The notes beneath the pieces were generated by a model. The model saw only the letters and a program-made list of their open reading frames with translations. It had not been told where the DNA came from and made no database searches. A stretch of DNA of 50,449 nt, taken from contig NZ_NHRY01000144.1 of the NCBI RefSeq assembly GCF_002937115.1, forward strand, positions 797 through 51,245. The letters are read 5' to 3'. How positions within the stretch are numbered: the first letter of the stretch is position 1; each line of letters starts with the position of its first letter. Origin of the DNA: Rhodopila globiformis (GTDB lineage: Bacteria > Pseudomonadota > Alphaproteobacteria > Acetobacterales > Acetobacteraceae). This document shows positions 12,866 through 44,398 of the stretch, in pieces. Both the position numbers and the translations under genes were made by a program.

Positions 12866-12911
12866 TCTATATTGAGCTGCGGTGGAATAGCACAGCCTCG
12901 GATAATACCTA
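12866..12911 (-). promoter_or_regulatory. FixJ-like box and -10 (box 10) for the 80-residue gene
   Basis: On the minus strand TAGGTATTATCCGA (12898-12911) is followed 26 bp later by TATAGA (12866-12871), 37 bp before the ATG at 12828. One base differs from the core TTTCCGA (TATCCGA). The spacing matches the other copies. Confidence 0.5.
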
Positions 12912-13140
12912 GTTGCATCGCACCCCGGGCTCCCCCCCGCGAGATCGATCCGGGGCGACGGGATCAAATCCGGACTCCTAGCGCTGGCACTGCCTCCGCG
13001 AAGCGAGCCAAGATGTTGCTCAAAGGCAAGAAGCGGCGCCAGAATGCTCCCTCACCCGCTTGCGCCGGATTTCCGGCTGGCCTGTTTTCGTCGCGGCGGC
13101 GGTGTTTGTTTTCACTTGATCCGTCTCAAGCCGGCTTTTC

Positions 13141-13186
13141 TGAGTAGTTTCCGAGCCTCCACGGGTCGCCGGCAGTCGATTATACC
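13141..13186 (+). promoter_or_regulatory. FixJ-like box and -10 (box 1) before BON remnant and response regulator
   Basis: TGAGTAGTTTCCGA at 13141-13154 is followed 26 bp later by TATACC at 13181-13186. The BON-like start codon lies 42 bp further. The core AGTAGTTTCC is, from memory, very close to the FixJ operator of rhizobia. No separate -35 is visible, as expected for an activator site that overlaps that position. Confidence 0.6.
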
Positions 13187-13227
13187 TCCCGTACGACACC
13201 ACCTCCCACCGAGCACCGCGGGGGACA

Positions 13228-13400
13228 TGATGTCTGCCGACAAGCAGTTGCAACAGGCCGTGCTGCCGGAACCGGACCAGGAGCCAAGCGTGGTCGCCGC
13301 GCACATCGGCAGCACCGTCCGCGGGACGATATCGGCCGCGCCCGGGCAACCGGAGTTCGGCATCCTATTTCGATCAAGTAGCAGATGGAGATATGCTGAC
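13228..13400 (+). pseudogene. BON-domain remnant in frame with the response regulator
   Basis: From ATGATG at 13228 (GGGGGAC upstream) the frame reads MSADKQLQQAVLPEPDQEPS and VVAAHIGSTVRGTI, which matches the start of BON-domain proteins (L-x-x-AV, W-EPSV-AAHIGVTA, GVITLTGHV) but loses the pattern after about 35 residues. There is no stop before the response regulator ATG, so a 191-residue fusion could be made. The same order (box, broken BON gene, response regulator) occurs at 44352-45191. I treat it as a decayed BON gene; a functional N-terminal extension is the alternative. Confidence 0.45.
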
Positions 13401-13802
13401 ATGACGGCACTGAGCGTCCTGGTTGTTGAAGATGACGCCATGCTCGCCACGAGCCTGACCGAAATGCTTGAAGATATGGGCTACAACGTGTGCGCGATCG
13501 CCGCCACCGAGGACGGTGCGGTGTCGGAAGCGGCCCGCTGCAAGCCGGGTTTGCTGATCGTGGACGAGCAGTTGCGAGAGGGAAGCGGCGCATCGGCGGT
13601 GGCTCGGATTCTCCGAGCGGGCTCGATTCCGTGCATCTTCATGAGCGGTGCGCGTCGGGATCCAACGCGTCCGGGCGCGATAATGTTGCAGAAGCCCTTT
13701 CATGGAAAAGATCTCGCTCGGGCGATCCGGCATGTGGTTGGCAGTGCGGATACGCCGGCGACGCTGACGCCCGCGCCGGCATACCGGGTCCCGCACGGCT
13801 GA
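13401..13802 (+). CDS. Single-domain response regulator (copy 1)
   Basis: This 133-residue receiver-only protein begins MTALSVLVVEDDAMLATSL and has the acidic pair at residues 11-12, the phosphoacceptor Asp55 in LLIVDEQL, the Ser of FMSGA and Lys in LQKPF. There is no output domain, only a short Pro/Ala tail. It is closely paralogous to the protein at 44832-45191. Receiver-only proteins usually act as phosphate sinks or shuttles for a hybrid kinase; the window's large hybrid kinase is the obvious partner. It is preceded by the box at 13141 and followed 83 bp on by a DHOD-like gene, probably in one transcript. Confidence 0.85.
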   Translation: MTALSVLVVEDDAMLATSLTEMLEDMGYNVCAIAATEDGAVSEAARCKPGLLIVDEQLREGSGASAVARILRAGSIPCIFMSGARRDPTRPGAIMLQKPFHGKDLARAIRHVVGSADTPATLTPAPAYRVPHG

Positions 13803-13885: not shown

Positions 13886-14920
13886 ATGTCCCTGATCACC
13901 CGGTATCTCGGCCTCACACTGAAGAACCCGATGATTGCATCGGCATCTCCGCTGACCGGCAAGATCGATAATCTCCGCCTTCTGGAAGATGCCGGGGCGG
14001 CCGCCATTGTGCTGCCATCCCTGTTTCAGGAACAGATCGAGGCCGAAACCGAGAACCAGGCAGCCCGGGTCGCGGCATTTGCCAACAGCTCGCCCGAGGC
14101 CCTGTCCTATTTTCCCGCCGCCGCAACCCGCCCGTACGGTTTGTATCCGGAACGCTATCTCGACTTTGTCCGGCGCGCCAAGGAAGCGGTGTCCATCCCC
14201 ATCATTGCCAGCCTGAACGGATCGTCCCGCGCCGGCTGGATCGAGTATTCGAAGCATATCGAGCAGGCGGGAGCGTCGGCGATTGAGTTGAACATGTATC
14301 TCGTGCCCATCAATCTGCTGGAATCAGGCCGTGAGATCGAGGCGCATTACATCGACATCGTGGAGGCCGTGTGCAGTTCCGTCCATCTGCCTGTCTCGGT
14401 CAAGCTGACCCCCTATCTGAGCGCCATCGGGCATTTCGCGGTCACTCTTGCCGAGCACGGCGCGGCCGGCTTTGTGCTGTTCAACCGCCTGATGGAGCCG
14501 GACATCGATCTGTCGCAGATGAAGCTGACGCACACACTGGAGCTCAGCGATCCCGCCGAACTGCGTTTGCCGCTGCTCTGGGCAGCCATCCTTGCCGGCC
14601 GCGTCGATGCTTCCTTGGCCATATCGACGGGCATACGCACGACTGAGGACGTTGTGAAATCGTTGCTGGCCGGCGCAGATGCCGTGATGACGACATCGGC
14701 ATTGCTGCGCTACGGTGCCGGCTACATGGCCACGCTCACCACCGGCCTGGGGCAATGGATGGAGGAACGGGAGATCGCCTCTGTCGCCGACATCCGCGGC
14801 AGGTTGAGCTGGCAGCGCAGCCAGGACCGCAGCGTCTACACCCGGACCGACTACCTGCATATCCTTGAACATTATCCGGCTTCCGCAGAAAATCATTTTC
14901 CATTCCCTCGTATTGACTAA
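13886..14920 (+). CDS. Dihydroorotate dehydrogenase-like flavoprotein
   Basis: This 344-residue TIM-barrel protein starts MSLITRYLGLTLKNPMIASA and continues with SPLTGKIDNLRLLEDAGAAA, the FMN-binding start of DHOD class 1 enzymes. VSVKLTPYLS carries the FMN-contacting Lys, ISTGIRTTEDVVKSLLAGAD is the phosphate-binding end, and VMTTSALLRYG follows. The catalytic base region and the length agree with the DHOD-like group often annotated in anaerobes and stress islands, not pyrD itself, which normally sits with other pyrimidine genes. AAGGAG precedes the ATG. Its place behind a stress response regulator suggests a redox role rather than pyrimidine synthesis. Confidence 0.8.
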   Translation: MSLITRYLGLTLKNPMIASASPLTGKIDNLRLLEDAGAAAIVLPSLFQEQIEAETENQAARVAAFANSSPEALSYFPAAATRPYGLYPERYLDFVRRAKEAVSIPIIASLNGSSRAGWIEYSKHIEQAGASAIELNMYLVPINLLESGREIEAHYIDIVEAVCSSVHLPVSVKLTPYLSAIGHFAVTLAEHGAAGFVLFNRLMEPDIDLSQMKLTHTLELSDPAELRLPLLWAAILAGRVDASLAISTGIRTTEDVVKSLLAGADAVMTTSALLRYGAGYMATLTTGLGQWMEEREIASVADIRGRLSWQRSQDRSVYTRTDYLHILEHYPASAENHFPFPRID

Positions 14921-14938
14921 GCGATATACTACCGCGTC

Positions 14939-14986
14939 TAGGTAGTTTCCGAGTCTGCCCCGACCGGCTCCGCGGCCCCATATGAC
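14939..14986 (+). promoter_or_regulatory. FixJ-like box and -10 (box 2) for the 160-residue membrane protein
   Basis: TAGGTAGTTTCCGA at 14939-14952 begins 18 bp after the DHOD-like stop. A TATGAC hexamer follows 28 bp later at 14981-14986, and the next start codon is at 15141, leaving a leader of about 150 bases in which I see no gene. Confidence 0.5.
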
Positions 14987-15140: not shown

Positions 15141-15623
15141 ATGACGACACGCCCCGATGCCTTCGCTCTGCCACACTCCGATCTGAACGCGTTTCTCTTT
15201 GCAGATGTGGGCACCGAGTTGAACGGTTCTCCGCTGACGATTCTCTCCATCCTGGCACGACTCGGGGAGGATCCCTGGGCGGAGGCGGCACGACTGGCGA
15301 AATTGCCGAAGGGCGAGGCATTCGATCGCCTGATACAGATCATGAGCAAAATGCCGCTTGGCCCGCAGGCTGTTCGCAACGTCGGCGCAACCGTTTCCCG
15401 CGTCATCCGGTTGCTGCCGGAGCCTACCCGAAACCCCGTGCAAGCCATCAACGGAGCGGTTGCCAACGCGGCGCGTCCGGGCTGGGTGCCGATAGCACTA
15501 CTGTGCGTATCGCTCGTGTTTGGTCTGATAGGTATGTTGATGATGATTCAGCCGGCACCTCCAACAATGACTGTGCCGGCAGAACAGACGGCTGTGCAAA
15601 GCAGCCCGGACAAGCTCAATTAG
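15141..15623 (+). CDS. Hypothetical protein with C-terminal membrane anchor
   Basis: This 160-residue protein has a soluble helical N-terminal part (about residues 1-105; LTILSILARLGEDPWAEAAR, LPKGEAFDRLIQIM), one membrane segment at about 114-135 (WVPIALLCVSLVFGLIGMLM) and a Pro/Thr/Gln tail. AGGAGAAAGATGCG provides the ribosome site. No domain is recognised. It lies alone between two copies of the repeated box, and its stop codon overlaps the second of these, so it is probably a monocistronic member of the inferred regulon. Confidence 0.65.
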   Translation: MTTRPDAFALPHSDLNAFLFADVGTELNGSPLTILSILARLGEDPWAEAARLAKLPKGEAFDRLIQIMSKMPLGPQAVRNVGATVSRVIRLLPEPTRNPVQAINGAVANAARPGWVPIALLCVSLVFGLIGMLMMIQPAPPTMTVPAEQTAVQSSPDKLN

Positions 15624-15666
15624 GTAAAGTCCGAGTCTACGTGGCCTGATAAGACAGAGATAAAGC
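15621..15666 (+). promoter_or_regulatory. Divergent FixJ-like box (box 3) before the GSP17M-like gene
   Basis: TAGGTAAAGTCCGA at 15621-15634 keeps the ends of the motif but has AAAG for (G/T)TTT, followed by the usual GTCT. Its first three bases are the stop codon of the preceding gene. A weak TAAAGC lies 26 bp further, and the next start codon is at 15770. Confidence 0.4.
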
Positions 15667-15769: not shown

Positions 15770-16306
15770 GTGGAACTTACGAATTCCGTGGTCGCCGTCT
15801 TCCCCGATCACACCGCGGCGGAGGAGGCGGTGAAAAGATTGACCGGCGCCGGCTTCGACATGAAGACCCTCAGCGTTGTCGGCAAGGGGTATCATACCGA
15901 CGAAAAAGTCGTTGGCTTCTACAACACCGGCGATCGAATCAAATTTTGGGGCACGCGCGGCGCCTTTTGGGGCGGCTTCTGGGGCTTGTTCTTCAGCGGC
16001 CTGTTCATGACGATTCCCTTTGTGGGACATGTGATCGTGCTTGGCTATCTGGCCACCGTGGCGATCTCCGCGATCGAGAACGCTGTCCTGGTCGGCGGGT
16101 TGAGCGCGCTGGGAGCAGCGATCTACAGTCTCGGCATACCCAAGGACAGCGTGCTCCAGTACGAGACCGCCATCAAAGCGGATGGTTTTCTGGTCATGGC
16201 CCATGGCAGTTCAGACGAAGTGGCTCGTGCCAAATCGATTCTGGGCACATCCAATCCGTCCTCTCTCATCGTGCATAGTGGCGAGCAAGTTCCCATGCCG
16301 GTATAG
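15770..16306 (+). CDS. General stress protein 17M-like membrane protein
   Basis: This 178-residue protein starts MELTNSVVAVFPDHTAAEEA, then VKRLTGAGFDMKTLSVVGKG, the ferredoxin-like fold of the GSP17M/YflT domain. A Gly/Phe-rich block (RGAFWGGFWGLFFSG) leads to hydrophobic segments at about residues 65-85 and 92-125. A second alpha-beta part follows (VLQYETAIKADGFLVMAHG). Proteins of this layout are usually annotated as general stress proteins or DUF1269-like, with no known reaction. It is the only gene between box 3 and box 4. Confidence 0.7.
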   Translation: MELTNSVVAVFPDHTAAEEAVKRLTGAGFDMKTLSVVGKGYHTDEKVVGFYNTGDRIKFWGTRGAFWGGFWGLFFSGLFMTIPFVGHVIVLGYLATVAISAIENAVLVGGLSALGAAIYSLGIPKDSVLQYETAIKADGFLVMAHGSSDEVARAKSILGTSNPSSLIVHSGEQVPMPV

Positions 16307-16397: not shown

Positions 16398-16442
16398 TAG
16401 GTATTTTCCGATCCTGGCGTCGCGCCGAGTATGCATTATAGT
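16398..16442 (+). promoter_or_regulatory. FixJ-like box and -10 (box 4) before the slipin gene
   Basis: TAGGTATTTTCCGA at 16398-16411 is followed 25 bp later by TATAGT at 16437-16442. The spacer holds the small inverted repeat GGCGTCGCGCC. The slipin start is at 16575. This is one of the clearest copies. Confidence 0.6.
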
Positions 16443-16574: not shown

Positions 16575-17408
16575 ATGTATGCCTGGTCTCTTTACATCAT
16601 CCCTCCGATCATCCTGATTGTGGGCTTCGCCCTGATCACGGCGACCGTGAAAATCCTCCGCGAATACGAACGCGCCGTGGTTTTCACGCTCGGACGCTTT
16701 GAGAAGGTGAAGGGACCGGGCCTGGTGCTGCTGCTTCCATTCATCCAGGAAATGGTCCGGGTGGATCTGCGTATCCAGGTCATCGAGATACCGACCCAGG
16801 ACGTAATCTCGCACGACAACGTCTCGATGAAGGTTGACGCGGTGCTCTACTTCAACGTCGTCAATCCCGAGCGCGCGATCATCCAGGTGCAGAATTATCG
16901 TCCCGCTACGAACATGCTGGCACAAACCACCTTGCGGGCCGTGCTCGGGCAGCACGAGCTGGACGAAATGCTGTCCGAACGCAAGAAGCTGAGCGCGGAT
17001 GTCCAGAGCATCATCGACACGCAGACCGAAACCTGGGGGATCAAGGTCAGCAACGTCGAGATCAGAACCGTGGAGCTGACCGACAACATGGTGAAAGCCA
17101 TCGCCAAACAGGCCGAGGCGGAACGCGATCGGCGCGCCAAGATCATCCATGCCGAAGCCGAATTCCAGGCCTCGCAAACCCTGGTCGACGCGGCGAGAGT
17201 CCTCTCCGGCATTCCCGCCGCCATGCAGCTACGCTATCTGCAGACGCTGGCGGAGATCGGCGCCGAGCAGAACTCCACCATCATATTTCCAATGCCGATC
17301 GATATCATTAAGCCGTTCCTGGAACTTCTTGACAAGGCTGGGAAAGCGCCGCGTGGGAATGGTGTCGTCCGTGAGCCAGTGGCAATGGAGTTCCCGGCGA
17401 GGGCGTGA
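16575..17408 (+). CDS. Slipin/stomatin-like SPFH protein
   Basis: This 277-residue band-7 protein has an N-terminal membrane segment (about residues 5-25, YIIPPIILIVGFALITAT), followed by REYERAVVFTLGRFEKVKGP and GLVLLLPFIQEMVRVDLR, the start of the SPFH domain. IPTQDVISHDNVSMKVDAVL and the C-terminal helix AIAKQAEAERDRRAKIIHAE with FPMPIDI complete the slipin pattern. Slipins form oligomers on the inner membrane and often pair with NfeD proteases; no nfeD is present here. An entericidin-like lipoprotein gene follows 170 bp on. Confidence 0.9.
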   Translation: MYAWSLYIIPPIILIVGFALITATVKILREYERAVVFTLGRFEKVKGPGLVLLLPFIQEMVRVDLRIQVIEIPTQDVISHDNVSMKVDAVLYFNVVNPERAIIQVQNYRPATNMLAQTTLRAVLGQHELDEMLSERKKLSADVQSIIDTQTETWGIKVSNVEIRTVELTDNMVKAIAKQAEAERDRRAKIIHAEAEFQASQTLVDAARVLSGIPAAMQLRYLQTLAEIGAEQNSTIIFPMPIDIIKPFLELLDKAGKAPRGNGVVREPVAMEFPARA

Positions 17409-17578: not shown

Positions 17579-17740
17579 ATGCGTCGTATTATCTTGATAG
17601 CTCTCCTCAATCTCGTCCTGCTGTCCGGCGCAACCGGGCTGTTGAGCGCCTGCAACACAACGGCTGGCGTCGGCAAGGACGTGAGTGCCACAGGCCATGC
17701 GGTAACGAACACCGCCGATAAGGTGAAATCGGGCATGTAG
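17579..17740 (+). CDS. Entericidin-like small lipoprotein (copy 1)
   Basis: This 53-residue protein has a signal segment ending LLSAC, a good lipobox, then NTTAGVGKDVSATGHAVTNT and ADKVKSGM. The mature CNT-x-x-GxGxDVxxxGxAxxxxA pattern is that of the entericidin EcnA/EcnB family of envelope lipoproteins. AAAAGGAG precedes the ATG. It follows the slipin gene and may share its transcript from box 4. In enterobacteria the family is linked to osmotic or stationary stress; the role here is inferred from family and context. Confidence 0.8.
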   Translation: MRRIILIALLNLVLLSGATGLLSACNTTAGVGKDVSATGHAVTNTADKVKSGM

Positions 17741-17925: not shown

Positions 17926-18576
17926 ATGGATACCATTGAGCCAAAATATCCCGAGACAACCGGGGCAAAGGCAAGTCCTGCCCCCACGGTCGAAAAAACA
18001 GACCGAGCGCCCCGGATGGACCAGGTCGCTTCATTCGAGCCTCAGTCGGTCGCATTACGCTGGCTCCGGAACGACATACCGTATATCGCAATGCTGCTGC
18101 TCGCCCTGGCGGGCGTTGTTTTCAGGCTGCCGGTTATCTACTGGGTCATTCTGATCCCGGTCTTCGGCATAGTCTCAGTTGTCGCGGGTTGGCGTAATTT
18201 CGTCACGACCAAAGAACGTACCGGACTCGTCCGGCGTGTTGCGCTGGACTGGTGCGCCCTCCTGCTCGCCATCTACCTGCTCTACGACAGCGGCGTACAG
18301 GGAGTGATGAACCGCAACGCCACGTCGCTGGAGATGATGACCCTGCTGGCTCTTGGTACGTTCATCGCCGGCGTGCAGGCCAGCGTTTGGCAAATCTGTG
18401 CCGTCGGCGGGGTGTTGTTCCTGGCGGTTCCCGCTTTGGGCTGGCTTGATCAATCACCCCTGCTTTTGACGGCCGCGACGTGCGTGATCATCGCGCTCGG
18501 TGGTGTTGCATGGTGGGTCATTCAGGGGCGCCCACAGGTGGGAGGCCAAATCCCGTCCCCGACTTCGTCGCTATGA
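17926..18576 (+). CDS. Polytopic membrane protein upstream of the proton ATPase
   Basis: This 216-residue protein has a polar 45-residue N-terminus, then about five hydrophobic segments (near residues 53-70, 73-90, 110-128, 145-165 and 180-200). GGGAG precedes the ATG at 17926. I recognise no family. It ends 34 bp before the P-type ATPase start, so the two are likely co-transcribed, and it may be an accessory subunit of the pump, though nothing in the sequence shows this directly. Confidence 0.6.
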   Translation: MDTIEPKYPETTGAKASPAPTVEKTDRAPRMDQVASFEPQSVALRWLRNDIPYIAMLLLALAGVVFRLPVIYWVILIPVFGIVSVVAGWRNFVTTKERTGLVRRVALDWCALLLAIYLLYDSGVQGVMNRNATSLEMMTLLALGTFIAGVQASVWQICAVGGVLFLAVPALGWLDQSPLLLTAATCVIIALGGVAWWVIQGRPQVGGQIPSPTSSL

Positions 18577-18610: not shown

Positions 18611-21388
18611 ATGGCACTCGCGACTGACGGCACCCCGGGCCTACCGGCAATCTCCGTCCATGGCGCCCTCGACACCATCGGCAGCGGACTCCAGGCGCTG
18701 GCCACCGCGTTGGCCGAACGCCTCATCGCCCTCCGAGAGGCCGCGACCGTTTTCCTGGACGGCATGATCCAGCACAAGGCCCTGATGACCACGGGCGTGG
18801 TGGCGGGGGCCGCGAGCGTAATCCTGGTGTTGCTCGTGATCAAGATTGTGCGGCATTCGATTGGCAACGGAACACCGCGAAGGCCCCGGGCGCCGCCGTC
18901 GCCTGCGGTCGAGACAAAGGATGACTTGCAGACGCTGCCGTTGCCGGAGTTGGAAAAAATCCTGGCGTCATCGCCGAACGGTCTGAGTGCATCCGAATCA
19001 GCGAAACGGCTGACGCAATATGGACCGAACGAGATCGAAAAGAAACGAACCAATGTCCTGCTGAAGATCCTGTCCTACTTCTGGGGCCCCATCCCGTGGA
19101 TGATCGAAGTGGCGGTGATCCTGTCGGGCGTGGTTCGGCACTGGCCCGATTTTTCCATCATCCTCGTGCTTCTGGTCGCCAACGCCGCGGTTGGTTTCTT
19201 CGAAGAACGCCAGGCGGGCAACGCCATCGAAGCCCTGAAGGCCAAACTGGCGATCAAGGCTCGGGTGCGGCGCGACGGGACGTGGATCACACCGCCGGCG
19301 CGAGAACTGGTGCCGGGTGATGCAATCCGCTTGCGCCTCGGCGACATCGTGCCAGCCGACGCGCGCCTGCTGGACGGTGATGAGGTCTCCGTCGATCAGT
19401 CCGCGCTGACCGGTGAATCTTTGCCGACGACGCGTAAGACCGGTGACGCCGTGTTCTCCGGGTCAATCATACGCCGGGGCGAGGTCAATGCGCTGGTCTA
19501 CGCGACGGGAGGGAAAACCTACTTCGGCAGGACAGCGGACCTGGTCCAGAGCGCCGCTACCGTCAGCCATTTTCAGAGGGCCGTCCTCCGGATTGGCAAC
19601 TACCTGATCATGCTGGCGGTGGCCATGGTAGCGGTGATCATTGCCGCCGCGGTCTGGCATGGCGACCCGATCCTGACGACGTTGCAGTTTGCCCTGGTGT
19701 TGACAGTGGCGGCAATCCCCGTGGCAATGCCCACGGTTCTGTCGGTGACGATGGCGGTCGGTGCCCGTCTGCTCGCGAAGAAGCAGGCGATTGTCAGCAA
19801 ACTGGTCGCGATAGAGGAACTGGCCGGCGTGGACGTGTTGTGTGCGGACAAGACCGGCACCCTGACGCAGAACAAGCTGACCTTGGGTGATCCGTTCTGC
19901 CTGGACAAAATCACTGTCGATCAACTCATCCTTGCCGGCGCGTTGGCCTCTCGGGCCGAGGACGACGTCATCGACCTCGCGGTCCTGGGAGGCCTGAGGA
20001 ACAAGCAGGCGCTGAAGCCGTTTCAGGTCACGCACTTCATGCCGTTCGATCCGGTTCACAAACGGACCGAGGCCGCGGTCACGGGGGCGGATGGCAGCAC
20101 ATTCAAAGTGACGAAGGGGGCGCCTCAGGTCATCCTCGGCCTGTCGGCCAATGAAGCCGCCGTTAAGGCGGCAGTGGACAAAGCTGTCAACGACTTTGCT
20201 GCGCGCGGCTTTCGCGCGCTGGGTGTGGCGCGGGCGGATGGCGACGGGAAATGGCAGTTTCTTGGTATCTTGCCGCTGTTCGATCCCCCGCGAGACGACG
20301 CCAAAGCCACTGTCGCGACCGCGGCCACGATGGGCGTGAAGATCAAGATGGTGACAGGCGATGCCCTGGCGATCGCCCGGGAGACAGCCAGGACGCTGGG
20401 GATGGGCACGAATATTCTCGACGGCGCCACCCTGGGTGACGCCCGGACCGAAGAGACCGCTTCGGTCGCCCGGTCCATCGAGCAGGCCGACGGTTTTGCC
20501 CAGGTGTTCCCGGAGCACAAATTCCACATCGTGGATGTGCTGCAGAAACATGGCCATGCCGTGGGCATGACCGGGGACGGGGTGAATGACGCCCCGGCGC
20601 TGAAGAAGGCCGATTGCGGCTTTGCCGTTTCCGGCGCGACGGATGCGGCACGGGCGGCGGCCTCCATCGTGCTGGTGGCGCCAGGGCTAACCGTGCTGAT
20701 CGACGCGATCAAGGAGAGCCGGAAGATCTTCCAGCGCATGAACAGCTACGCGATGTACCGCATCGCCGAGACGCTGCGCGTGTTGCTGTTCATGACGCTG
20801 GCGATCGTCGTCTTTAATTTCTATCCGCTGACGGCGATCATGATCGTGATGCTGGCGTTGCTGAATGACGGGGCGATTTTGTCCATCGCCTATGACAATG
20901 TCGTCTACAGGAACCAACCTGAGGCATGGAATATGCGGGTGGTTCTTGGCATCGCCACGGTGCTGGGACTCGTTGGTCCGATTGCCGCGTTCGGACTGTT
21001 TTTTCTCGGCGACCGCGTCCTGCACATCGACCGTCCGCAGATCCAGACCATGATGTACCTGCTGCTGTCGGTGGCCGGGCATCTGACGATCTTCCAGACG
21101 CGCACCCGCGGCGCGTGGTGGACGATACGCCCGGCGCCGATACTGTTGCTGGCAGTTGTCGGAACGCAGGTGGTGGCAACAGTGATTTGCGTCTCCGGCT
21201 TCCTTGTGGCCCCTCTCTGGTGGGGATGGGCAGCCATGGTTTGGGGCTATGCCCTGGCTTGGTTCCTGGTGACCGACCCTGTGAAACTGCTCGCGTATCG
21301 GCTGCTCGATCGAACCGGGGGAGGGGGCGAGGTTCCGACCACGCCGGTAACGGCCGGGTTCGAGCCGCAGGCGTTAGCGTCGCACTGA
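18611..21388 (+). CDS. Plasma-membrane H+-exporting P-type ATPase (P3A)
   Basis: This 925-residue pump has an N-terminal extension of about 110 residues with an additional hydrophobic segment, then the cation-ATPase N domain (LPLPELEKILASSPNGLSAS). Other hallmarks are DQSALTGES (actuator, TGE loop), the phosphorylated Asp413 in CADKTGTLTQNKL, the KGAPQVIL nucleotide site, MTGDGVNDAPALKKAD (hinge) and a multi-helix C-terminus. The membrane segment AIPVAMPTVLSV is typical of P3A proton pumps (Pma1-like) and not of Ca, Na/K or heavy-metal types. GGAGG lies before the ATG. Proton export fits acid tolerance. A fragment of a second pump follows directly. Confidence 0.88.
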   Translation: MALATDGTPGLPAISVHGALDTIGSGLQALATALAERLIALREAATVFLDGMIQHKALMTTGVVAGAASVILVLLVIKIVRHSIGNGTPRRPRAPPSPAVETKDDLQTLPLPELEKILASSPNGLSASESAKRLTQYGPNEIEKKRTNVLLKILSYFWGPIPWMIEVAVILSGVVRHWPDFSIILVLLVANAAVGFFEERQAGNAIEALKAKLAIKARVRRDGTWITPPARELVPGDAIRLRLGDIVPADARLLDGDEVSVDQSALTGESLPTTRKTGDAVFSGSIIRRGEVNALVYATGGKTYFGRTADLVQSAATVSHFQRAVLRIGNYLIMLAVAMVAVIIAAAVWHGDPILTTLQFALVLTVAAIPVAMPTVLSVTMAVGARLLAKKQAIVSKLVAIEELAGVDVLCADKTGTLTQNKLTLGDPFCLDKITVDQLILAGALASRAEDDVIDLAVLGGLRNKQALKPFQVTHFMPFDPVHKRTEAAVTGADGSTFKVTKGAPQVILGLSANEAAVKAAVDKAVNDFAARGFRALGVARADGDGKWQFLGILPLFDPPRDDAKATVATAATMGVKIKMVTGDALAIARETARTLGMGTNILDGATLGDARTEETASVARSIEQADGFAQVFPEHKFHIVDVLQKHGHAVGMTGDGVNDAPALKKADCGFAVSGATDAARAAASIVLVAPGLTVLIDAIKESRKIFQRMNSYAMYRIAETLRVLLFMTLAIVVFNFYPLTAIMIVMLALLNDGAILSIAYDNVVYRNQPEAWNMRVVLGIATVLGLVGPIAAFGLFFLGDRVLHIDRPQIQTMMYLLLSVAGHLTIFQTRTRGAWWTIRPAPILLLAVVGTQVVATVICVSGFLVAPLWWGWAAMVWGYALAWFLVTDPVKLLAYRLLDRTGGGGEVPTTPVTAGFEPQALASH

Positions 21389-21418: not shown

Positions 21419-21850
21419 ATGCTCACGGGCGAACCGATACCGATCGAAGTCGGTGCGGGTGTGCAGCCTTATGCCGGGGCCCGGGTAAGACGCGGTGAGA
21501 CGGTGGCGGAGGTCTCCGCGACCGGAGCACGCGCCAGGTTCGGCCGCACCGCGGAACTGGGGCGCACCGCCCGGGTCGTCAGGTCCCGGCAGAAGACAGT
21601 ATTGCCTATCGTGCGCAATCTCGCCTGTTTCAGCGGCGCGGTCATTGTGATGCTGTTGGCCTATGCGTATTGGCTTGGGCTGCCCCTGGGCCGACATCAT
21701 TCCGCTCATTTTGACCGCGGTCCTTGCATCGACTCCCGTAGCGCTGCCGGCGACGTTCACGCTCGCATCCGCGCTGGGCGCCCGTGCGCTGGCACGAAAG
21801 GGCGTCCTGCCGACGCGCCTGTCCGCGGTCAATGAAGCCGCGACAAGGAT
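21419..21850 (+). pseudogene. Fragment of a second P-type ATPase
   Basis: This remnant starts at the TGE loop (MLTGEPIPIEVGAGVQPYAG) and reads through ARVRRGETVAEVSATGARAR and VRNLACFSGAVIVMLLAYAY; a frameshift near 21690 then gives PLILTAVLASTPVALPATFT and VLPTRLSAVNEAAT. It stops before the DKTGT site. Residues such as PVALPATFTLASALGARAL place it in the same P3A group as the intact neighbour, but the sequence differs enough to be a separate paralog rather than a recent copy. It is dead: no start, no phosphorylation site, a frameshift. Confidence 0.8.
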
Positions 21851-21974: not shown

Positions 21975-22574
21975 CTACGCTGGCGCCACGACGCATGACG
22001 GCACGACATTCCACAGCGTGATAACCCGCACGCCAGGGTGGCTGCGGCTATATCCAAGAATGCTCAAAGCCGCAGGGTCGAAGGTGAAATGCTGCCCTTC
22101 CATCACCGACAGGCCGATCCATCGCGACGCCAGGACACAGCCGAACTGGCCATGGAAGAATAGTGCGACGTTTCCATCCAACTCGCCAAGCCGACTGATA
22201 AGCCGATCGGCGCGGGCGGAAACCTGTGCTGTGGCTTCGCCACCGGGACAGCCGTCGCGAAAGATGTTCCAACCCGGGCGGCTTTGCAGAATGTCCTCGG
22301 AACGCCGCCCTTCGTAATCGCCGTAGTCCCATTCCGCCAGGTCCGGTTCGACGACGGCCGCCTGCCCCGGCATGGCCAGCTCACAGGTTCGCCGGGCGCG
22401 CTGCCGCGGGCTGGTCAATACATGTGCGAACGCAATACCGCGAAGGGCGGGACCGAGTTTGCGCACTTCGTCCTCGCCACGCTCGGTCAAGGGAATGTCC
22501 GAGCGCCCGGTGTGCCTGCCGGAGCGCGACCACTCGGTTTCGCCGTGACGGATCAGATAGAGCCGTAGGGCCAT
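21975..22574 (-). CDS. Histidine phosphatase (phosphoglycerate mutase-like)
   Basis: This 199-residue protein starts MALRLYLIRHGETEWSRSGR, the RHG box with His10 as phosphate acceptor. It continues with HTGRSDIPLTERGEDEVRKL and LTSPRQRARRT (catalytic Arg), EWDYGDYEGR (Glu) and LFFHGQFG (second His). All four catalytic positions are present. The group covers cofactor-dependent phosphoglycerate mutases and broad phosphatases, and this short form is more like the phosphatases. It lies 74 bp after phosphoketolase on the same strand, so it is probably co-transcribed and acts on sugar phosphates. Confidence 0.85.
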   Translation of the reverse strand: MALRLYLIRHGETEWSRSGRHTGRSDIPLTERGEDEVRKLGPALRGIAFAHVLTSPRQRARRTCELAMPGQAAVVEPDLAEWDYGDYEGRRSEDILQSRPGWNIFRDGCPGGEATAQVSARADRLISRLGELDGNVALFFHGQFGCVLASRWIGLSVMEGQHFTFDPAALSILGYSRSHPGVRVITLWNVVPSCVVAPA

Positions 22575-25188: not shown

Positions 25189-25235
25189 ACTATAATGCGC
25201 CGCGATTCACCCGGAGTAGGTTCGGAAAATACTCA
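25189..25235 (-). promoter_or_regulatory. FixJ-like box and -10 (box 8) for phosphoketolase
   Basis: On the minus strand TGAGTATTTTCCGA (25222-25235) is followed 27 bp later by TATAGT (25189-25194), in the context GCATTATAGTG, which closely resembles the -10 of box 4. The phosphoketolase ATG lies 123 bp downstream. The direction is away from the GH65 operon, which has its own copy. Confidence 0.65.
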
Positions 25236-30985: not shown

Positions 30986-31032
30986 ATCTTAGCGGGCAGG
31001 CGTCATGACAGGACAGGTTCGGAAACTACTCA
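30986..31032 (-). promoter_or_regulatory. FixJ-like box and -10 (box 9) for the pgmB-GH65 operon
   Basis: On the minus strand TGAGTAGTTTCCGA (31019-31032) is identical to boxes 1 and 5. TAAGAT follows 27 bp later (30986-30991), and the pgmB ATG is 171 bp downstream. Confidence 0.6.
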
Positions 31033-31332
31033 CGCCCGGGAACCGGGTCTGCAACGACCAACGGGCCCCGAGAAGCGCCAGTCCCCGTGACCCCGTCGTA
31101 GCGGCAACCGCATAGGGGTTTTCCGAAGCTACCGCCGCACCATCGGCGACCGGTATGATCGGGGATCACTTTAAAACTTGCTGTCCAGGCTGCCGGGCGG
31201 CCGTCGAAGGTTCGGCGCGCGGTCACCCTGCGCGGAACGCGTACAGGGTGTGAATCGCGCGATCAAACAAAGGGCCAGAGCATTTCGGCCTGCACGTTCA
31301 GGCTGAAAAAGCTCTGGCGGGAGCCCCTGACC
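31033..31332. other. Intergenic region between divergent pgmB and GT4 genes
   Basis: There are about 300 bases with no credible gene on either strand. The only recognisable elements are box 9 at its left edge and GGGAG before the GT4 start on the right. No copy of the box faces the GT4 gene. Short inverted stretches (for instance GGGGTTTTCCGAAGC near 31115) do not match the box spacing. Confidence 0.5.
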
Positions 31333-36548: not shown

Positions 36549-36582
36549 TGAGTATTTTCCGAATCTGGCGCGATGTCGCGCC
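36549..36582 (+). promoter_or_regulatory. FixJ-like box (box 6) with adjoining inverted repeat
   Basis: TGAGTATTTTCCGA at 36549-36562 is followed by the perfect inverted repeat GGCGCGA-TG-TCGCGCC at 36567-36582. No good -10 is found at the usual spacing (the bases there read GCATCATCC). The next gene on this strand is CsbD-like, at 36943, 360 bp away. Confidence 0.45.
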
Positions 36583-36942: not shown

Positions 36943-37116
36943 ATGATTGACAAAGATCGGATAGCCGGGTCGGCCAAGCAGGTCGAGGGCACCGTCAAGG
37001 AAGCGGTCGGAAAGGTTATCGGCGACGCAAAGCTGGTCGCTGACGGGAAAAGTGAGAAGGTCGAGGGCAAGATCCAGAACACCGTCGGCGGGATCAAGGA
37101 CGCGCTGAAGGAGTGA
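36943..37116 (+). CDS. CsbD-family stress protein
   Basis: This 57-residue, highly charged helical protein begins MIDKDRIAGSAKQVEGTVKE and continues with AVGKVIGDAKLVADGKSEKV and EGKIQNTVGGIKDALKE. The repeated G-x-x-K-x-x-x-G-x-x-K-E pattern is that of CsbD (YjbJ-like) proteins, which are abundant in stress and stationary phase with no known reaction. GGAGAG precedes the ATG. It follows box 6 and precedes a small membrane protein by 224 bp. Confidence 0.9.
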   Translation: MIDKDRIAGSAKQVEGTVKEAVGKVIGDAKLVADGKSEKVEGKIQNTVGGIKDALKE

Positions 37117-37751: not shown

Positions 37752-37765
37752 TGAGTAGTTTCCGA
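37752..37765 (+). promoter_or_regulatory. FixJ-like box (box 5) before the DUF3309 cluster
   Basis: TGAGTAGTTTCCGA is identical to boxes 1 and 9 and is followed by GTCT. At the usual spacing the bases read TCTCTT, so no convincing -10 is seen. The DUF3309 start codon lies 175 bp downstream; CCGGC/GCCGG arms (37771-37790) lie between. Confidence 0.5.
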
Positions 37766-37940
37766 GTCTACCGGCATCGCAGGACGCCGGAGTCTCTTGC
37801 GGCCAGGTCGAAATCCACCGCTGCTGCAAGAGCGTGAACAGATAGCGGCCATGGGTTCGCGGCGGACATCGAGCCGACTGCATTGTTCACAAGGCTGCCG
37901 GACCGGTCGTCGTCCGGCACGCGTCTCCGGAGGCTCTACC

Positions 37941-38099
37941 ATGAATCTTGGCACAATTCTATTGATCGTTCTGGTTCTGATGCTGATCGGCGTGCTCCCG
38001 ACCTGGTCGCACAGTGCACACTGGGGCTACTTCCCGAGCGGCGGGCTGGGCCTGATCATCATCCTTGTCATTGTCCTCGTGGTTACTGGGCGAATTTAG
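37941..38099 (+). CDS. DUF3309 family small membrane protein
   Basis: This 52-residue protein reads MNLGTILLIVLVLMLIGVLP, TWSHSAHWGYFPSGGLGLII and ILVIVLVVTGRI: two hydrophobic segments joined by a W-x-H-x-x-x-WGY-x-PSGGLG loop, the signature of DUF3309. GGAGG lies 7 bp before the ATG. The function is unknown. Members are common in stress clusters of alphaproteobacteria. It heads a run of four small genes after box 5. Confidence 0.9.
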   Translation: MNLGTILLIVLVLMLIGVLPTWSHSAHWGYFPSGGLGLIIILVIVLVVTGRI

Positions 38100-38337: not shown

Positions 38338-38505
38338 ATGAGCACCATTCTAATCATCGTCGTGCTGATCTTGCTGTTCGGTGGGGGCGGCGGCTATTAC
38401 GGCTACAACCGCTACGGTGGGGCGGGACTGGGCGGCGTGCTCAGCCTCGTGCTGGTCGTGTTGCTGGTGCTGTGGCTGCTCGGCGCACTCGGCATCCAGT
38501 CCTGA
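38338..38505 (+). CDS. Gly-rich two-span small membrane protein
   Basis: This 55-residue protein reads MSTILIIVVLILLFGGGGGY and YGYNRYGGAGLGGVLSLVLV: a first membrane helix, a GGGGGYYGYNRYGG loop, then a second helix (VLVVLLVLWLLGALG). The layout is like DUF3309 with a different loop; it is a recurrent family of unknown role. GAAGGTG precedes the ATG. A truncated relative lies on the other strand at 39632-39718. Confidence 0.75.
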   Translation: MSTILIIVVLILLFGGGGGYYGYNRYGGAGLGGVLSLVLVVLLVLWLLGALGIQS

Positions 38506-39160: not shown

Positions 39161-39379
39161 TCAGACGCCGGAACGCAGGGCCGAAATCGGTCGGTCTGTT
39201 ACGCCGACGGTCAAATAGATCGCCATTAGCACACGGGTATCGTGATCGCTGATCGTCTCAACACTGTCTGCGAGATCAGCGAATGTCGCACTCTCCGCAA
39301 GGCTGAAAGAGGTCACGCTAGTCGAGAACAGCGCCGTTACGACGTTTGTCGGTCTCTCGTATGTTGCAATGTTGTGCAC
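39161..39379 (-). CDS. Small protein with GTG start
   Basis: This 72-residue protein starts at GTG 39379, chosen because GGAGG lies 6 bp upstream; a much longer frame runs through it without a better start. It reads HNIATYERPTNVVTALFSTS, then TSFSLAESATFADLADSVET, then ISDHDTRVLMAIYLTVGV. ATFADLADxV and the following IYL block match small proteins I recall from Methylobacterium and Acetobacteraceae. No function is known. The 250 bases upstream on this strand hold no copy of the repeated box. Confidence 0.55.
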   Translation of the reverse strand: MHNIATYERPTNVVTALFSTSVTSFSLAESATFADLADSVETISDHDTRVLMAIYLTVGVTDRPISALRSGV

Positions 39380-39631
39380 GATTTTCCTCCGGAACTGTAT
39401 CTGTACCAGGATGACAGCCACTATGTCTAAACTGGTTATGCGGCCCCTATGACTGCAGGCGATGGTTGCTTTATCCGCTCGACCAGCCGACCCTATCTCT
39501 TGATGAAAATTGCGAAAGGATCGGAATCTACTTATCCAGCAGCCTTGCGAACGAATCGAGCCGGAAAAGCTTCCCGGCTCACGACCTGCCGTCGTGTCCT
39601 TTAGCGCAAGTACGGCATGCCACCGACGGAC

Positions 39632-39805: not shown

Positions 39806-39819
39806 TCTGGAAAATACTG
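39806..39819 (-). promoter_or_regulatory. Degenerate FixJ-like box (box 11)
   Basis: On the minus strand CAGTATTTTCCAGA keeps GTATTTTCC but not the flanking TGA or the CGA end. No clear -10 lies at 25-28 bp. It is about 90 bp upstream of the truncated small membrane protein gene, so it may be a decaying site. Confidence 0.3.
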
Positions 39820-39848: not shown

Positions 39849-42800
39849 TTAGGAGTCTGCTCCGGTTGCCGCGAGCGCCACTCTTGCCAGTGCAGGCAAC
39901 GATTTCACACCGAGCCGCTTCATGATCGCGGCCCGATGGTTCTCTACGGTGCGTTGGCTGATGCCAAGATCGGCGGAAATGTTCTTGCTAGGATGGCCGG
40001 CGAGCACCAGATCCATGACCTGACGCTGCCGCGGGGTCAGGCCGGCGACGTGATGTGCCGCATCCTCGCGCCTAGCGGACAGCTTGCTCGTATCGTGCGA
40101 TTGTTCCAGTGCGCAATCGACACTTGCCTGCAATTCGCTCCGGCTGATCGGCTTTTCAATAAAGTCCATCGCGCCCGCCTTCATGGCTGCGACCGCGACC
40201 GAAACATCGCTGTTGCCGGTGATCATGATCGCCGGCAACGTGTGGCCCAGGTTGTGAAGCTGCTTCAGCAACTCAAGGCCGGACATCCCGGGAAGATAGG
40301 CATCAATCACCAGGCACCCTTCATGCCCTGGACGGAACGTCTCCAGGAACGCCTCACAACTGGCGAAGTCGGTCACGGCTCGGCCGTCGTCTTCCAAAGC
40401 GGCTCGGATTGCGGCCCGCACGCCGGCATCGTCGTCAACAACGAATACCATTGGCGGCGATGGTGGATCGACCGCTTCAGCCGCACACGCCGCTCGTGGC
40501 TCAGCCATGGTTTGCGAACGCGGCAACAGGTGCTGAACGGTCTGCGTCAGTCCGGCCAGTTTCACCGGTTTGGTGAGTCGGATGCAGTCCGGAAGCGCAA
40601 TGTCCCGGACGCTGCCGAGCAGGATATCACCGGTCAGGATGATGACCGGAATGGCTCGGTGGAGCAGTTCCCGAATCTTCTCCGTGGTTTGAACACCATT
40701 CAGGCCGCCTGGAAGGTTGTAATCAGCGAGAATCAGATCGGGCCGCATCGCGCCTGTTTTCAGCATTGTCAGTGCCGTTGGGCCGTCCGGCGCGGTCGCC
40801 ACGTCGTAGCCGTCTTCTCTGAGAAATACCTCCAGCAGATCTCTGACATCCGGATCATCTTCGATCAGCAGGATTTCGCCGGTATGACGCGCAGGCTCAG
40901 TCGCGTTCTCTTCGGCAGTGGCCGCTTGCTCTGTGGTAAGCGCCGTCGGTGCCCCGGATGCCAGACCAACCTCCACAGTGAAGACCGACCCGCGTCCTGG
41001 CTGCGACCGAACACCAACCTCGTGACCCAACAGTTTCCCGAGGCGATAGACAATGGACAGTCCAAGCCCAAGGCCACGACTTCGCTCACGGGCCGGGTTG
41101 TCGATCTGATGGTATTCGTCAAAGATCGCTTGGAGATCGCCGTCCGCGATACCGATCCCGGTGTCCCAGACTTCGATACGAAGCTTTCCAGCGTGCCGGC
41201 GGCAGCCAAGCAGAATCGCGCCATGCCTGGTGTATTTCAAGGCGTTTGAAACAAGATTGCGGATCATCTGCGCCAGCAGGCGCGGATCGCTTTCGATTGA
41301 CAATCCGCAAAGAACCACGCGCAAACGCAGGCCCTTGGCCTGGGCATGATAGTTGAATTCGTCCCGCAATTGCTCAAGCAGGCTGTTGACAGGGAAGCAG
41401 ATTTTTTCAGCGCTTACCGTGCCGGATTCAATCTGATTGATGTCGAGCAGGGCGTTGAGCATGCCTTCCATCGCGCTCAGGGTTTCATCAAGGCGGCCGA
41501 TCAGCACCTGGCCTCGCTCGGTTTGAACATGCTTTCCCAGCAGGCCTTGCAACAGGACAAGCGTTTGCAGAGGCTGTCGCAGATCATGGCTTGCGGCGGC
41601 CAGAAACCGCGACTTCGCGGCATTCGCCTGCTCGGCATGGCGCTTCGCTATGCCAAGCTCGTCCGTCACGCGCCGCCTTTCAGTCATGTCGGAAAATGTG
41701 ATGACCACGCCCTCCACCCCGCCGTTCTGCGCGCGATAGGGCAGGACGCGGCGGAGGTAGCAGGCGCCGTTTTCCGTTTCGATCTCGCGGTCGATCGGAT
41801 TCAGGGTCCGCAGAACGGTTCTGGCATCGGCGGAAAGATCGCCTTCCGTTATGACCCATGAATGCAGGTCGGACAGCGGACGCCCGATATCGCCCGGTAG
41901 GATGGTGAAAAGCGCCCGCGTGGTTGGCGTGAAGAACCGGATGCTAAGATCGAGGTCGAGGAACAGCGTCGCTACGTTGGTGCTGTAAAGTACATTCTGC
42001 AGATCATTGGCCGTCGTGCGTTGCCGTTCCAGCGTTTCCTGAAGCTGGCTGTTCAGTGCAGTCAACTCTTCATTCAGCGACTGCAGCTCTTCCTTCGAGG
42101 TCAGAAGCTCCTCGTTGGTCGACTGGTACTCTTCCTGAACGGAGAGAGCCTCTTCGTGGATCACCTTCTGTTCTTCGGCGGAAATCTCCAGGTTATGGAC
42201 CGCACCTTGCAACTCGATGCGCGTGGCCTCCAGCTCCTGCTCCAGTTCCGTCACGCGGGTTGTGTCCCCCCCGCTCCCGGACCGTTGCCGCGCCCGTTCG
42301 GCTTTCAGATCGTCAACAAAACAAACGAGCAGCAGATCCTCACCGTTGGTGCGGGCAGGTTGAACCGCGATGCTGAATGTCCGGCCGCTGTCATCCTGGC
42401 TTGTGCGCCCGCCGGCGATGACGATGCGCGCATTCGCCTGGGTCGCCTGTTGTATCGCGGAACGAACCTTGGTACGTATCGCCGGCTGAACGAGCGCCAG
42501 CAGATCCTGGGTCGGATGTCCGGACACGACCCGGAGATAGCGGTCGGTCGGACCAAGGGAATAGAGACACTCATGGCTGCGGTTGATCAGCATGGCCGCG
42601 GGCGCATAGGTGTCGATCACCAGTCGCCGGCAGAGTTCCGCCAGCGCAGCCTGACGTGAGATGGTCTGATCTTGAACGTGCCGCACCGGCGCGCGCAACC
42701 CATCGATGGCGCCCCTGATAAAGCCGATCTCGCCCGGCCGGCAGTGACCAATGTGCCGATACAGCCGGGCGGTCTTTGAAATCGGCTCAAACCGGCCGTC

Positions 42801-44234
42801 GTCGCTGCCCACCGTCTCGGATGTGCCAAGCAGAAGGACGCCGCCTTGACGCAGCGCGAAATGGAACAGGGCCAGGACTTTTTCCCGTGCCTCGGCTTGC
42901 AAATAGATCAGCAAATTCCGGCAGGATACGAAATCAATATGGGAAAACGGTGGATCTGCGAGCAGATCCTGTACAGTGAAGACAACCGCGGAACGCAGTT
43001 CGGCCGAGATCCGGTATTGCTTATCCTCTTTCGAAAAGAAGCGGGCGAGTCTTTCCTTTGAGACATCGGTCTGGATCGTTTCCGGATAGCGACCCTCACG
43101 CGCGCTGGCGACAGCGTCCGGATCAATGTCGGAGGCGAATACCTGCAGCTTGATATCGCGGTTCGCTGCGGAAATCGCCTCCCGGAACAGCATGGCCAGC
43201 GAGTAGGCTTCTTCACCGGTGCTGCAACCGGCGATCCAGATGCGGATCGGCTGGCCCTGCGGGTGGGCGCTTACCAGATCCGGAATGATCTTGTCGGCCA
43301 GCAGGGTGAACACGTGTTGATCGCGGAAGAAGCCGGTCACGTTGATCAGCAATTCCTTGGCAAGAGTGTTGAGTTCGGCCTGATCGGAAAGCAGCAACTG
43401 CATGTAGCGCTCGATGTCGTGGACGTCGATTGCCGCTACTGCCATTCGCCGCTCGATCTGCCGCTGCAGCGTGCCCGGCTTGTAAAGCGTGAAATCATGG
43501 CTGGTTCTGCCGCGGAGCAATTCTATTACGCCGGGTAGCCAGTCTTTGGGTGTATCCTGAGCCTGCGTTTGTTGGCGCAGGCTGCCGGTGTCAGCGTACC
43601 TGGCAAGCGCATCTGGCATATCGGCGATCGGCAGCACATGATCCACGACACTCGCCAGAATGGCGCTTTCCGGCATGCCCGCATATCCGGCTTCGGCCGG
43701 GTCCTGCGCGATCACCAGGCCGCCTGCTTTCTTGACCGCCGCGAGCCCGACACTGCCGTCGCTCCCGGTTCCCGACAGGATGATGCCCGCAGACCGGTCC
43801 CGGTATTCGGCGGCCAGGGAGTGCAACAGGAAATCGAACGGGAGCCGCGCGCCGTGTAGGGCCTGGGGGTGAGACAAATGCAGGCAGCCGCTCACGACTG
43901 ACAGATAGGTTCCAGGCGGAATGATATAGAGATGATCCGGTTCGACCGGCGTCCCTTCCATTGCCTGCGCCACGAGCATCGACGTTTGGCTGCTCAGCAG
44001 CTCTACCAGCATGCTGTCATGCGTCGGATCGAGATGCTGAACAAGAATGAAGGCCATCCCGGGCTTGGGGGGCAGCGCGGCGAGGAGCTTCTTGCAGGCA
44101 TCCAGGCCACCCGCGGACGCACCGATCGCGACGACGGCAAAATCAGCAGAATGTTCGGCGGGGCCGCGCGCCGTAACCTGGTCTCTCGGTGCAAAAAGGA
44201 CGACGCTGGCCGGCCTCCAGAGTTCTTCTGTCAT
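39849..44234 (-). CDS. CheB-CheR-PAS hybrid histidine kinase with REC-REC-LuxR C-terminus
   Basis: Taking the ATG at 44234 (longer forms reach into box 7), this protein has 1461 residues. A CheB methylesterase domain has AIGASAGGLDACKK, VQHLDP and SGTGSDGSVG. CheR follows with AGCSTGEEAYSLAML (about 340) and FVSCRNLLIYL. A coiled coil (QKVIHEEALSVQEEY, LLTSKEELQSLNEEL), a PAS domain (LFLDLDLSIRFFTPTT) and HisKA (ASHDLRQPLQT, His about 883) lead to a HATPase_c with NLVSNALKY and GLGLGLS. REC1 has Asp about 1171 (LILADYNLPG), REC2 Asp about 1311 (LVIDAYLPG), and a LuxR helix-turn-helix ends it (LTPRQRQVMDLVLAGHPSKN). REC2-HTH is FixJ-like. An internal start at MAEPRAACAAE (40508) could also give the FixJ-like part alone, but has no ribosome site. 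Confidence 0.9.
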   Translation of the reverse strand: MTEELWRPASVVLFAPRDQVTARGPAEHSADFAVVAIGASAGGLDACKKLLAALPPKPGMAFILVQHLDPTHDSMLVELLSSQTSMLVAQAMEGTPVEPDHLYIIPPGTYLSVVSGCLHLSHPQALHGARLPFDFLLHSLAAEYRDRSAGIILSGTGSDGSVGLAAVKKAGGLVIAQDPAEAGYAGMPESAILASVVDHVLPIADMPDALARYADTGSLRQQTQAQDTPKDWLPGVIELLRGRTSHDFTLYKPGTLQRQIERRMAVAAIDVHDIERYMQLLLSDQAELNTLAKELLINVTGFFRDQHVFTLLADKIIPDLVSAHPQGQPIRIWIAGCSTGEEAYSLAMLFREAISAANRDIKLQVFASDIDPDAVASAREGRYPETIQTDVSKERLARFFSKEDKQYRISAELRSAVVFTVQDLLADPPFSHIDFVSCRNLLIYLQAEAREKVLALFHFALRQGGVLLLGTSETVGSDDGRFEPISKTARLYRHIGHCRPGEIGFIRGAIDGLRAPVRHVQDQTISRQAALAELCRRLVIDTYAPAAMLINRSHECLYSLGPTDRYLRVVSGHPTQDLLALVQPAIRTKVRSAIQQATQANARIVIAGGRTSQDDSGRTFSIAVQPARTNGEDLLLVCFVDDLKAERARQRSGSGGDTTRVTELEQELEATRIELQGAVHNLEISAEEQKVIHEEALSVQEEYQSTNEELLTSKEELQSLNEELTALNSQLQETLERQRTTANDLQNVLYSTNVATLFLDLDLSIRFFTPTTRALFTILPGDIGRPLSDLHSWVITEGDLSADARTVLRTLNPIDREIETENGACYLRRVLPYRAQNGGVEGVVITFSDMTERRRVTDELGIAKRHAEQANAAKSRFLAAASHDLRQPLQTLVLLQGLLGKHVQTERGQVLIGRLDETLSAMEGMLNALLDINQIESGTVSAEKICFPVNSLLEQLRDEFNYHAQAKGLRLRVVLCGLSIESDPRLLAQMIRNLVSNALKYTRHGAILLGCRRHAGKLRIEVWDTGIGIADGDLQAIFDEYHQIDNPARERSRGLGLGLSIVYRLGKLLGHEVGVRSQPGRGSVFTVEVGLASGAPTALTTEQAATAEENATEPARHTGEILLIEDDPDVRDLLEVFLREDGYDVATAPDGPTALTMLKTGAMRPDLILADYNLPGGLNGVQTTEKIRELLHRAIPVIILTGDILLGSVRDIALPDCIRLTKPVKLAGLTQTVQHLLPRSQTMAEPRAACAAEAVDPPSPPMVFVVDDDAGVRAAIRAALEDDGRAVTDFASCEAFLETFRPGHEGCLVIDAYLPGMSGLELLKQLHNLGHTLPAIMITGNSDVSVAVAAMKAGAMDFIEKPISRSELQASVDCALEQSHDTSKLSARREDAAHHVAGLTPRQRQVMDLVLAGHPSKNISADLGISQRTVENHRAAIMKRLGVKSLPALARVALAATGADS

Positions 44235-44351
44235 AACAGTATTGTCTTTCGAGGGCACGTGAAACCGAGGCGTGCACGAAAAAGCGCATAGCACCACATC
44301 AATTTCAAAGCAATAGAGGACCTGGCTGATCTCGGACATTCCAGGATACTC

Positions 44352-44398
44352 TGAGTAATTTCCGAGCCTCCACAAACCGGTCCGTCATCCGATATAGT
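44352..44398 (+). promoter_or_regulatory. FixJ-like box and -10 (box 7) before BON remnant and response regulator
   Basis: TGAGTAATTTCCGA at 44352-44365 is followed 27 bp later by TATAGT at 44393-44398. The BON-like GTG start lies 52 bp further. The box sits in the 215-bp divergent region between the hybrid kinase and this cassette, so the kinase gene may also respond to it. Confidence 0.65.

Follow-up and report, generated by a model that had tools for sequence, protein, structure and literature searches.

We report that a short DNA element recurring in a 50,449-nucleotide stretch of the Rhodopila globiformis genome (contig NZ_NHRY01000144.1, positions 797 to 51,245, hereafter the window) very probably serves as operator in a local stress regulon. 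Judging from comparative sequence evidence, it is most likely bound by the C-terminal FixJ-like helix-turn-helix of a hybrid kinase encoded in the same window (hereafter the hybrid). Together, the element (hereafter the box), the promoters it belongs to, the hybrid and the genes behind the boxes would provide an operator, a promoter geometry, a regulator and a target list for a stress regulon that extends over many genera of Alphaproteobacteria, some of whose genomes yielded no trace of the known general stress response.

Searching the window for TRRGTADTTTCCGA with at most two mismatches returned 12 matches, compared with a mean of 0.78 and a maximum of 3 in shuffled sequences. All nine strong copies reported in an earlier reading made without database searches (the sequence-only reading) were recovered, eight of them exactly; the copy at 12898(-), TAGGTATTATCCGA, differs at one position. 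We also trained a weight matrix on sites from other genomes, so that neither the window nor a site on contig C54 of the same genome contributed to it. With this matrix, 12 window sites scored at least 19.0, and the best of 10 Markov shuffles scored 15.4. This set includes the sites at 31113(+) and 39534(-), both missing from the earlier list. It also retained, with a score of 19.0, the degenerate copy proposed at 15621(+), while the one proposed at 39806 was discarded as lying outside the 12 sites. We also noted a borderline box at 45411(+), with a score of 16.7 against 15.4 for the best shuffle, which precedes a second P-type ATPase gene (45575-48181).

Over the whole genome (7.25 Mb), nine exact copies were found, eight in the window and one on contig C54; the gene behind the latter had no Pfam or NCBIfam match. 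Allowing one mismatch to TRRGTANTTTCCGA raised the count to 14, of which 10 in the window (the reversed pattern gave 5), and the 21-mer TNRGTADTTTCCGANYCTNCC at up to two mismatches occurred 11 times, including 9 in the window. The genome-wide search that had been suggested as a check thus showed a box that is real and very local. Since most copies lie within the window, the regulon is in this genome largely confined to an island of about 32 kb. Of 299 genomes sampled from the same family, 35 carried the extended box, the 18-mer TRRGTADTTTCCGARYCT, and none its reversed pattern; the 35 belong to 21 genera and include all seven sampled genomes of the genus of the window. In a sample of the class, 13 of 385 genomes had the 18-mer and 1 of 385 the reversed pattern.

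We then examined the surroundings of 129 distinct box sites, 7 from the window and 1 from C54. None lies inside a predicted gene, whereas 4434 of 6450 positions drawn at random from the same stretches do. Equal frequency inside genes, which would have spoken against a regulatory role, was thus not what we saw. The distance from the box to the chosen downstream start codon has a median of 175 bp and is at most 250 bp in 85 of 118 cases. Counted from the box start, information peaks a second time at +40 to +46, with the reading TAnnnT, and the -10-like hexamer begins 40-41 bp in. TANNNT occurs at offsets 38-43 in 65 of the 129 sites, whereas 20 control bins gave a mean of 3.85 (range 0-9). No -35-like element was seen across the 129 sites, in which the box is directly followed by a weak RCC. 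With the start of the hexamer set at -12, the box falls at about -52 to -35. A -10, the lack of a -35 and a predicted activator site overlapping the -35 region are the marks of a class II activated promoter, and they agree with the previous suggestion that an activator binds the box ahead of a promoter with no -35. The hexamers described earlier as TATAGT-like are found at their positions in the window, although several are merely TATA-like (TATACC at 13181, TATGAC at 14981, TAAGAT at 30986 and TATAGA at 12866).

An acceptable downstream frame was found for 118 of the 129 sites, and 117 of the proteins were scanned, one very long frame being left out; at least one listed box site (G258:C284) is outside the set. 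Among the 25 of 141 Pfam families listed, PRC-barrel was found in 10 proteins, receiver in 6, CsbD in 5, phosphoketolase in 4, PAS in 3, and KaiC, BON and MCRA in 2 each. Protein clusters common to the window and other genomes comprise response regulators, CsbD, phosphoketolase, HAD hydrolase and the family of the 160-residue protein 15141-15623, which has no Pfam or NCBIfam match and was found again behind boxes in two other genomes. The proposal that the boxes join such genes in one regulon is therefore supported by the recurrence of PRC-barrel, response regulator, CsbD, phosphoketolase and other genes behind the box in other genomes.

The candidate regulator lies among the boxes. Its frame is open from 39849 to 44375, which gives a protein of roughly 1460-1508 residues; we placed its start near 44234 because this is where relatives begin to match. 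The closest solved structure to its tail is FixJ (5xso, expectation value (E) 7e-41), followed by the StyR-like 1yio. Across the aligned hybrids, 54 of 54 keep the kinase His, the Asp of both receivers and the receiver Lys residues unchanged; the Ser, His and Asp of CheB are present in 52 of 54, and the CheR residues in 50-54 of 54. The recognition helix reads SQRTVENHRA, its Q being conserved in 53 and its N in 50 of the 54. Kinase, receiver and DNA-binding domain are thus joined in one chain with their catalytic residues, as in a one-polypeptide hybrid two-component system.

The presence of the box follows that of the hybrid. We counted as hybrid genomes 62 of the 299 family members, assigned by hand from matches of at least 43% identity beyond the CheB-CheR kinase class. 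In the family, the hybrid was found in 33 of 35 box genomes versus 29 of 264 genomes without the box (Fisher 2e-24), and when the match had to reach the helix-turn-helix the figures were 28 of 35 versus 23 of 264 (Fisher 4e-19). None of the 31 family genomes in which the weaker CheB-CheR-PAS kinase match was the only one had the box. In the class sample, the hybrid occurred in 7 of 13 box genomes (6 of 12 leaving out the genome of the window) versus 9 of 372 others (7e-8). In named genomes, 13 of 20 loci of close relatives (L055-L074) carried the 18-mer at one mismatch or less in their flanks, and none of 60 distant-relative loci did; culturable bacteria with the hybrid include Skermanella, Bosea and Humitalea. 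A box lay within 1 kb of the ends of 50 of 61 hybrid genes, whereas the reversed matrix gave 2 and the permuted matrix 0; the 61 genes were taken from 68 loci after dropping 6 partial matches and 1 locus without hybrid, and two contigs were counted twice (L065/L142 without box, L066/L143 with box).

The full hybrid was missing in eight box genomes. Four of them (G010, G357, G363 and G557) keep a helix-turn-helix of the same type behind another sensor or none. In G357 and G363, a PAS kinase with a REC-helix-turn-helix tail and no CheB-CheR lies on the same stretch as the boxes. The protein of G557 (L310, 7822-8436(-)) has 204 residues, about 70% identity in the helix-turn-helix and no recognisable receiver, and it adjoins a box. 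G010 (L323, G010:C81) has a 644-residue relative without CheB-CheR. Since these exceptions retain the helix-turn-helix behind a changed sensor, the box appears to track the helix-turn-helix rather than the sensor, and one operator and its DNA-binding domain would have been retained while the part in front of them changed.

Several observations weigh against the assignment of the box to the hybrid. The co-occurrence tests above ignore relatedness among genomes. In 11 of the 62 hybrid genomes, 5 of them box genomes, the match ends before the helix-turn-helix, 29 of the 62 have no exact 18-mer (many of these have degenerate copies), and 11 of the 61 hybrid genes have no box nearby. The link is weaker in the class sample than in the family, with 6 of 13 box genomes lacking a full hybrid. 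G637 has a CheB-CheR fragment alone, at a contig end, and no relative was found at E 1e-15 in the box genomes G193 (family), G469 and G665 (class). Half of the box sites are without TANNNT. The boxes at the 5' end of the hybrid gene mostly point away from it, an orientation that lends no support to direct autoactivation.

Resemblance to FixJ sites had been noticed from the outset, and it raises the question of whether the box is bound by canonical stand-alone FixJ, regulating the island in response to oxygen. Excerpts of PMC4999443 give the FixJ site selected in vitro, GTAGTTTCCC, and the Sinorhizobium meliloti fixK site, TAAGTAATTTCCCTTA; both have the string GTADTTTCC in common with the box, which bears out the description of the box as FixJ-like. 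The host genome does encode a stand-alone FixJ on contig C29, which at 299.3 bits exceeds the NCBIfam FixJ cut-off of 255, whereas the whole hybrid (218.7) and its 199-residue tail (197.7) miss it. Boxes are also commoner in genomes with FixJ than in others (11 of 36, the 36 of 299 family genomes being those with a stand-alone-FixJ-like match at E 1e-60). Yet the distribution of the box separates the two proteins: it was found in 0 of 21 genomes with FixJ and no hybrid, in 22 of 47 with the hybrid and no FixJ, in 11 of 15 with both and in 2 of 216 with neither. Moreover, a search at E 1e-60 detected no FixJ in 24 of the 35 box genomes, and the boxes adjoin the hybrid gene. Because FixJ-only genomes lack the box, canonical FixJ is unlikely to be the main binder and we rejected it as such; cross-talk between the C29 protein and the hybrid is possible. 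What stands of the earlier proposal of a FixJ-like binder is, as far as sequence comparison tells, the tail of the hybrid. Like FixJ, this tail consists of REC and a LuxR-type helix-turn-helix, but it is fused to its own kinase in one frame, while FixJ stands alone and is paired with a separate haem-PAS kinase, FixL. Further differences lie in the recognition helix (S[AP]RT[VI]EV[HY]RAN in the three FixJ proteins compared), in the 3' half of the box (GARYCT) and in the predicted targets of the box, which are stress genes as far as the listed families show. Canonical FixJ is a regulator of fixK or nifA.

A strictly conserved element of 18-21 bp with constant spacing to a -10-like element, as the box is, could also belong to promoters read by an alternative sigma factor and form their upstream part. 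This is very improbable and was rejected: the conserved TTTCCGA sits about 26 bp ahead of the -10, a spacing too large for a -35; the hexamer has the plain form TAnnnT; a LuxR-type helix-turn-helix occurs together with the box; and EcfG-type promoters (GGAAC-N15-18-GTT) are not in excess in the window (7 versus 4.6 expected). Least probable is that the boxes are dispersed mobile repeats or recombination sites of the island, a reading favoured by their clustering on one contig that also bears transposase sequence and rejected because no longer conserved repeats surround them, conservation ending at the box and the -10 while flanking and intervening sequences differ, because their orientation follows the next gene, and because 21 genera in the family sample show this arrangement.

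Taking the hybrid as the binder, we propose the following course of events. Its cytoplasmic N-terminal half, with a PAS domain possibly tuned by CheB and CheR, would read a signal and set the kinase. Phosphate would then pass within the chain to the first and on to the second receiver domain, whereupon the tail would dimerise, occupy the box (about -52 to -35) in promoters having a -10 and no -35, and recruit RNA polymerase as a class II activator. Predicted targets from carbohydrate and acetyl-phosphate metabolism are phosphoketolase, GH65, HAD hydrolase and glycosyltransferase; slipin, entericidin-like, YflT, CsbD and DUF3309 proteins are those among membrane and small stress proteins. The divergent stand-alone receiver, also a putative target, may feed back on the hybrid. 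In this respect, it recalls FixT, a stand-alone receiver that, according to excerpts of PMC7078487, acts in feedback on FixLJ. Here too a stand-alone REC gene lies behind a box, and genes similar to the one at 44832..45191 are divergent from the hybrid gene in 17 of 61 cases; by analogy with FixT, the box-driven receiver could be a feedback element.

Between CheR and PAS, the hybrid has a Glu-rich coiled coil with Glu-Glu pairs at 748/749, 755/756, 762/763 and 769/770, in exact steps of seven residues, which can be likened to the methylation helices of chemoreceptors. The four pairs are present in 52 of 54 hybrids under a strict definition and in 54 of 54 under a loose one; of the box-associated variants that lack CheB-CheR, 3 of 3 are without them, as are 502 of 505 background frames. 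L300, L078 and L080 fall outside these counts, since the motif used did not fit their frames. The 644-residue relative L323 also has no coiled-coil stretch with four Glu pairs, and it seems to have no ATPase domain. We tentatively suggest, though we hold it to be rather doubtful, that CheR and CheB methylate and demethylate the Glu pairs of their own coiled coil, so that the kinase output would adapt to lasting stress and the transcription factor would have a memory of the chemotaxis type; this reading leans on a small number of exceptions. The hybrid would then offer a case, open to testing, in which such methylation acts on a transcriptional switch.

The hybrid was also compared with other known systems. 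Bacteroides-type one-protein hybrid two-component systems, which have a periplasmic sensor and an AraC-type domain, likewise unite a kinase, a receiver and a DNA-binding domain in a single polypeptide, but the hybrid has a CheB-CheR-PAS front and a GerE tail. For the kinase and first receiver, the best NCBIfam match was NahK/ErcS (NF041832) at 354.6 bits, below its cut-off of 400; the hybrid differs from it by the CheB-CheR front and the REC-helix-turn-helix tail. The PhyR-NepR-EcfG response has similar kinds of target genes, namely CsbD, PRC-barrel and entericidin. NepR was not detected in the host genome, a Caulobacter control being positive, and the window has no excess of EcfG-type promoters, as given above. 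In the family, NepR was found in 16 of 62 hybrid genomes versus 130 of 237 others, a negative association (p 5e-5) in counts that include weak matches and a test that ignores relatedness; for these reasons it is just a suggestion that the hybrid may stand in for the PhyR-NepR-EcfG response in several lineages. Inputs of Azospirillum kinases include CheB and methyltransferase domains, and excerpts of the source (PMC4618731) contain no fusion of such a kinase to a FixJ-like tail. In the open-access literature searched, judged by search listings and with most subscription journals outside its range, there was no published account of the box or of a CheB-CheR-kinase-FixJ-like fusion, which suggests a bacterial stress switch not described there. 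The whole circuit would be held by one compact island and one polypeptide, and it should therefore be directly testable and movable between strains. As a separate point, L115, L123 and other FixJ-like relatives might have a functional counterpart in Azospirillum FlcA, a regulator of LuxR-UhpA type that, according to excerpts of PMC4264754, governs flocculation and cyst-like forms.

Table. Box sites of the window, the genes behind them, and the candidate regulator locus
Feature	Coordinates	Strand	Matrix score	-10-like element	Associated genes or domains
Box, 1 mismatch in 14-mer	12894..12911	-	23.2	TATAGA 12866-12871	toward 12586-12828(-), 80-residue protein
Box	13141..13158	+	33.7	TATACC 13181-13186	REC protein 13227-13802; dihydroorotate-dehydrogenase-like 13886-14920
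Box	14939..14956	+	37.4	TATGAC 14981-14986	160-residue protein 15141-15623
Box, weaker	15621..15638	+	19.0	TAAAGC 15661-15666	YflT/GSP17M-like 15770-16306
Box	16398..16415	+	32.5	TATAGT 16437	slipin (Band_7) 16575-17408; entericidin-like 17579-17740; 17926-18576; P-type ATPase 18611-21388
Box	25218..25235	-	40.4	TATAGT 25189-25194	phosphoketolase (XFP) 22649-25066(-); histidine phosphatase 21975-22574
Box	31015..31032	-	41.1	TAAGAT 30986-30991	HAD hydrolase 30075-30815; two GH65 genes
Box, new to the list	31113..31130	+	25.1	TATGAT 31154-31159	glycosyltransferase 31333-32400
Box	36549..36566	+	38.2	weak (CATCAT)	CsbD 36943-37116, 394 bp on
Box	37752..37769	+	36.6	weak (TCTCTT)	DUF3309 37941-38099; second DUF3309 38338-38505
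Box, new to the list	39517..39534	-	29.1	TAGGGT 39490-39495	downstream of regulator gene, toward 86-residue frame 39161-39421(-)
Box	44352..44369	+	37.4	TATAGT 44393-44398	between regulator gene and divergent REC protein 44832-45191
Proposed regulator gene	39849..44234 (about)	-			CheB-CheR-coiled coil-PAS-HisKA-HATPase-REC-REC-GerE (helix-turn-helix)
Stand-alone single-domain REC protein	44832..45191	+			divergent from regulator gene

Among the genes behind the window boxes, the open reading frame 44404-44817, between the last box and the REC gene, had no Pfam or NCBIfam match. The top NCBIfam match of the REC protein 13227-13802 was the REC region of the PhyR family, under its cut-off. The start of this protein resembles that of the BON proteins which G017 and G258 (L189, L243) have behind boxes, and might reflect the fusion or decay of two island genes. 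Directly after the P-type ATPase gene 18611-21388, a 138-residue piece of an E1-E2 ATPase (21419-21835) appears to be what is left of a second copy. On one side of the island lie a large frame (166-2238), by eye similar to site-specific recombinases, and an IS4/5-type transposase (9613-10746); their presence beside the island suggests mobility.

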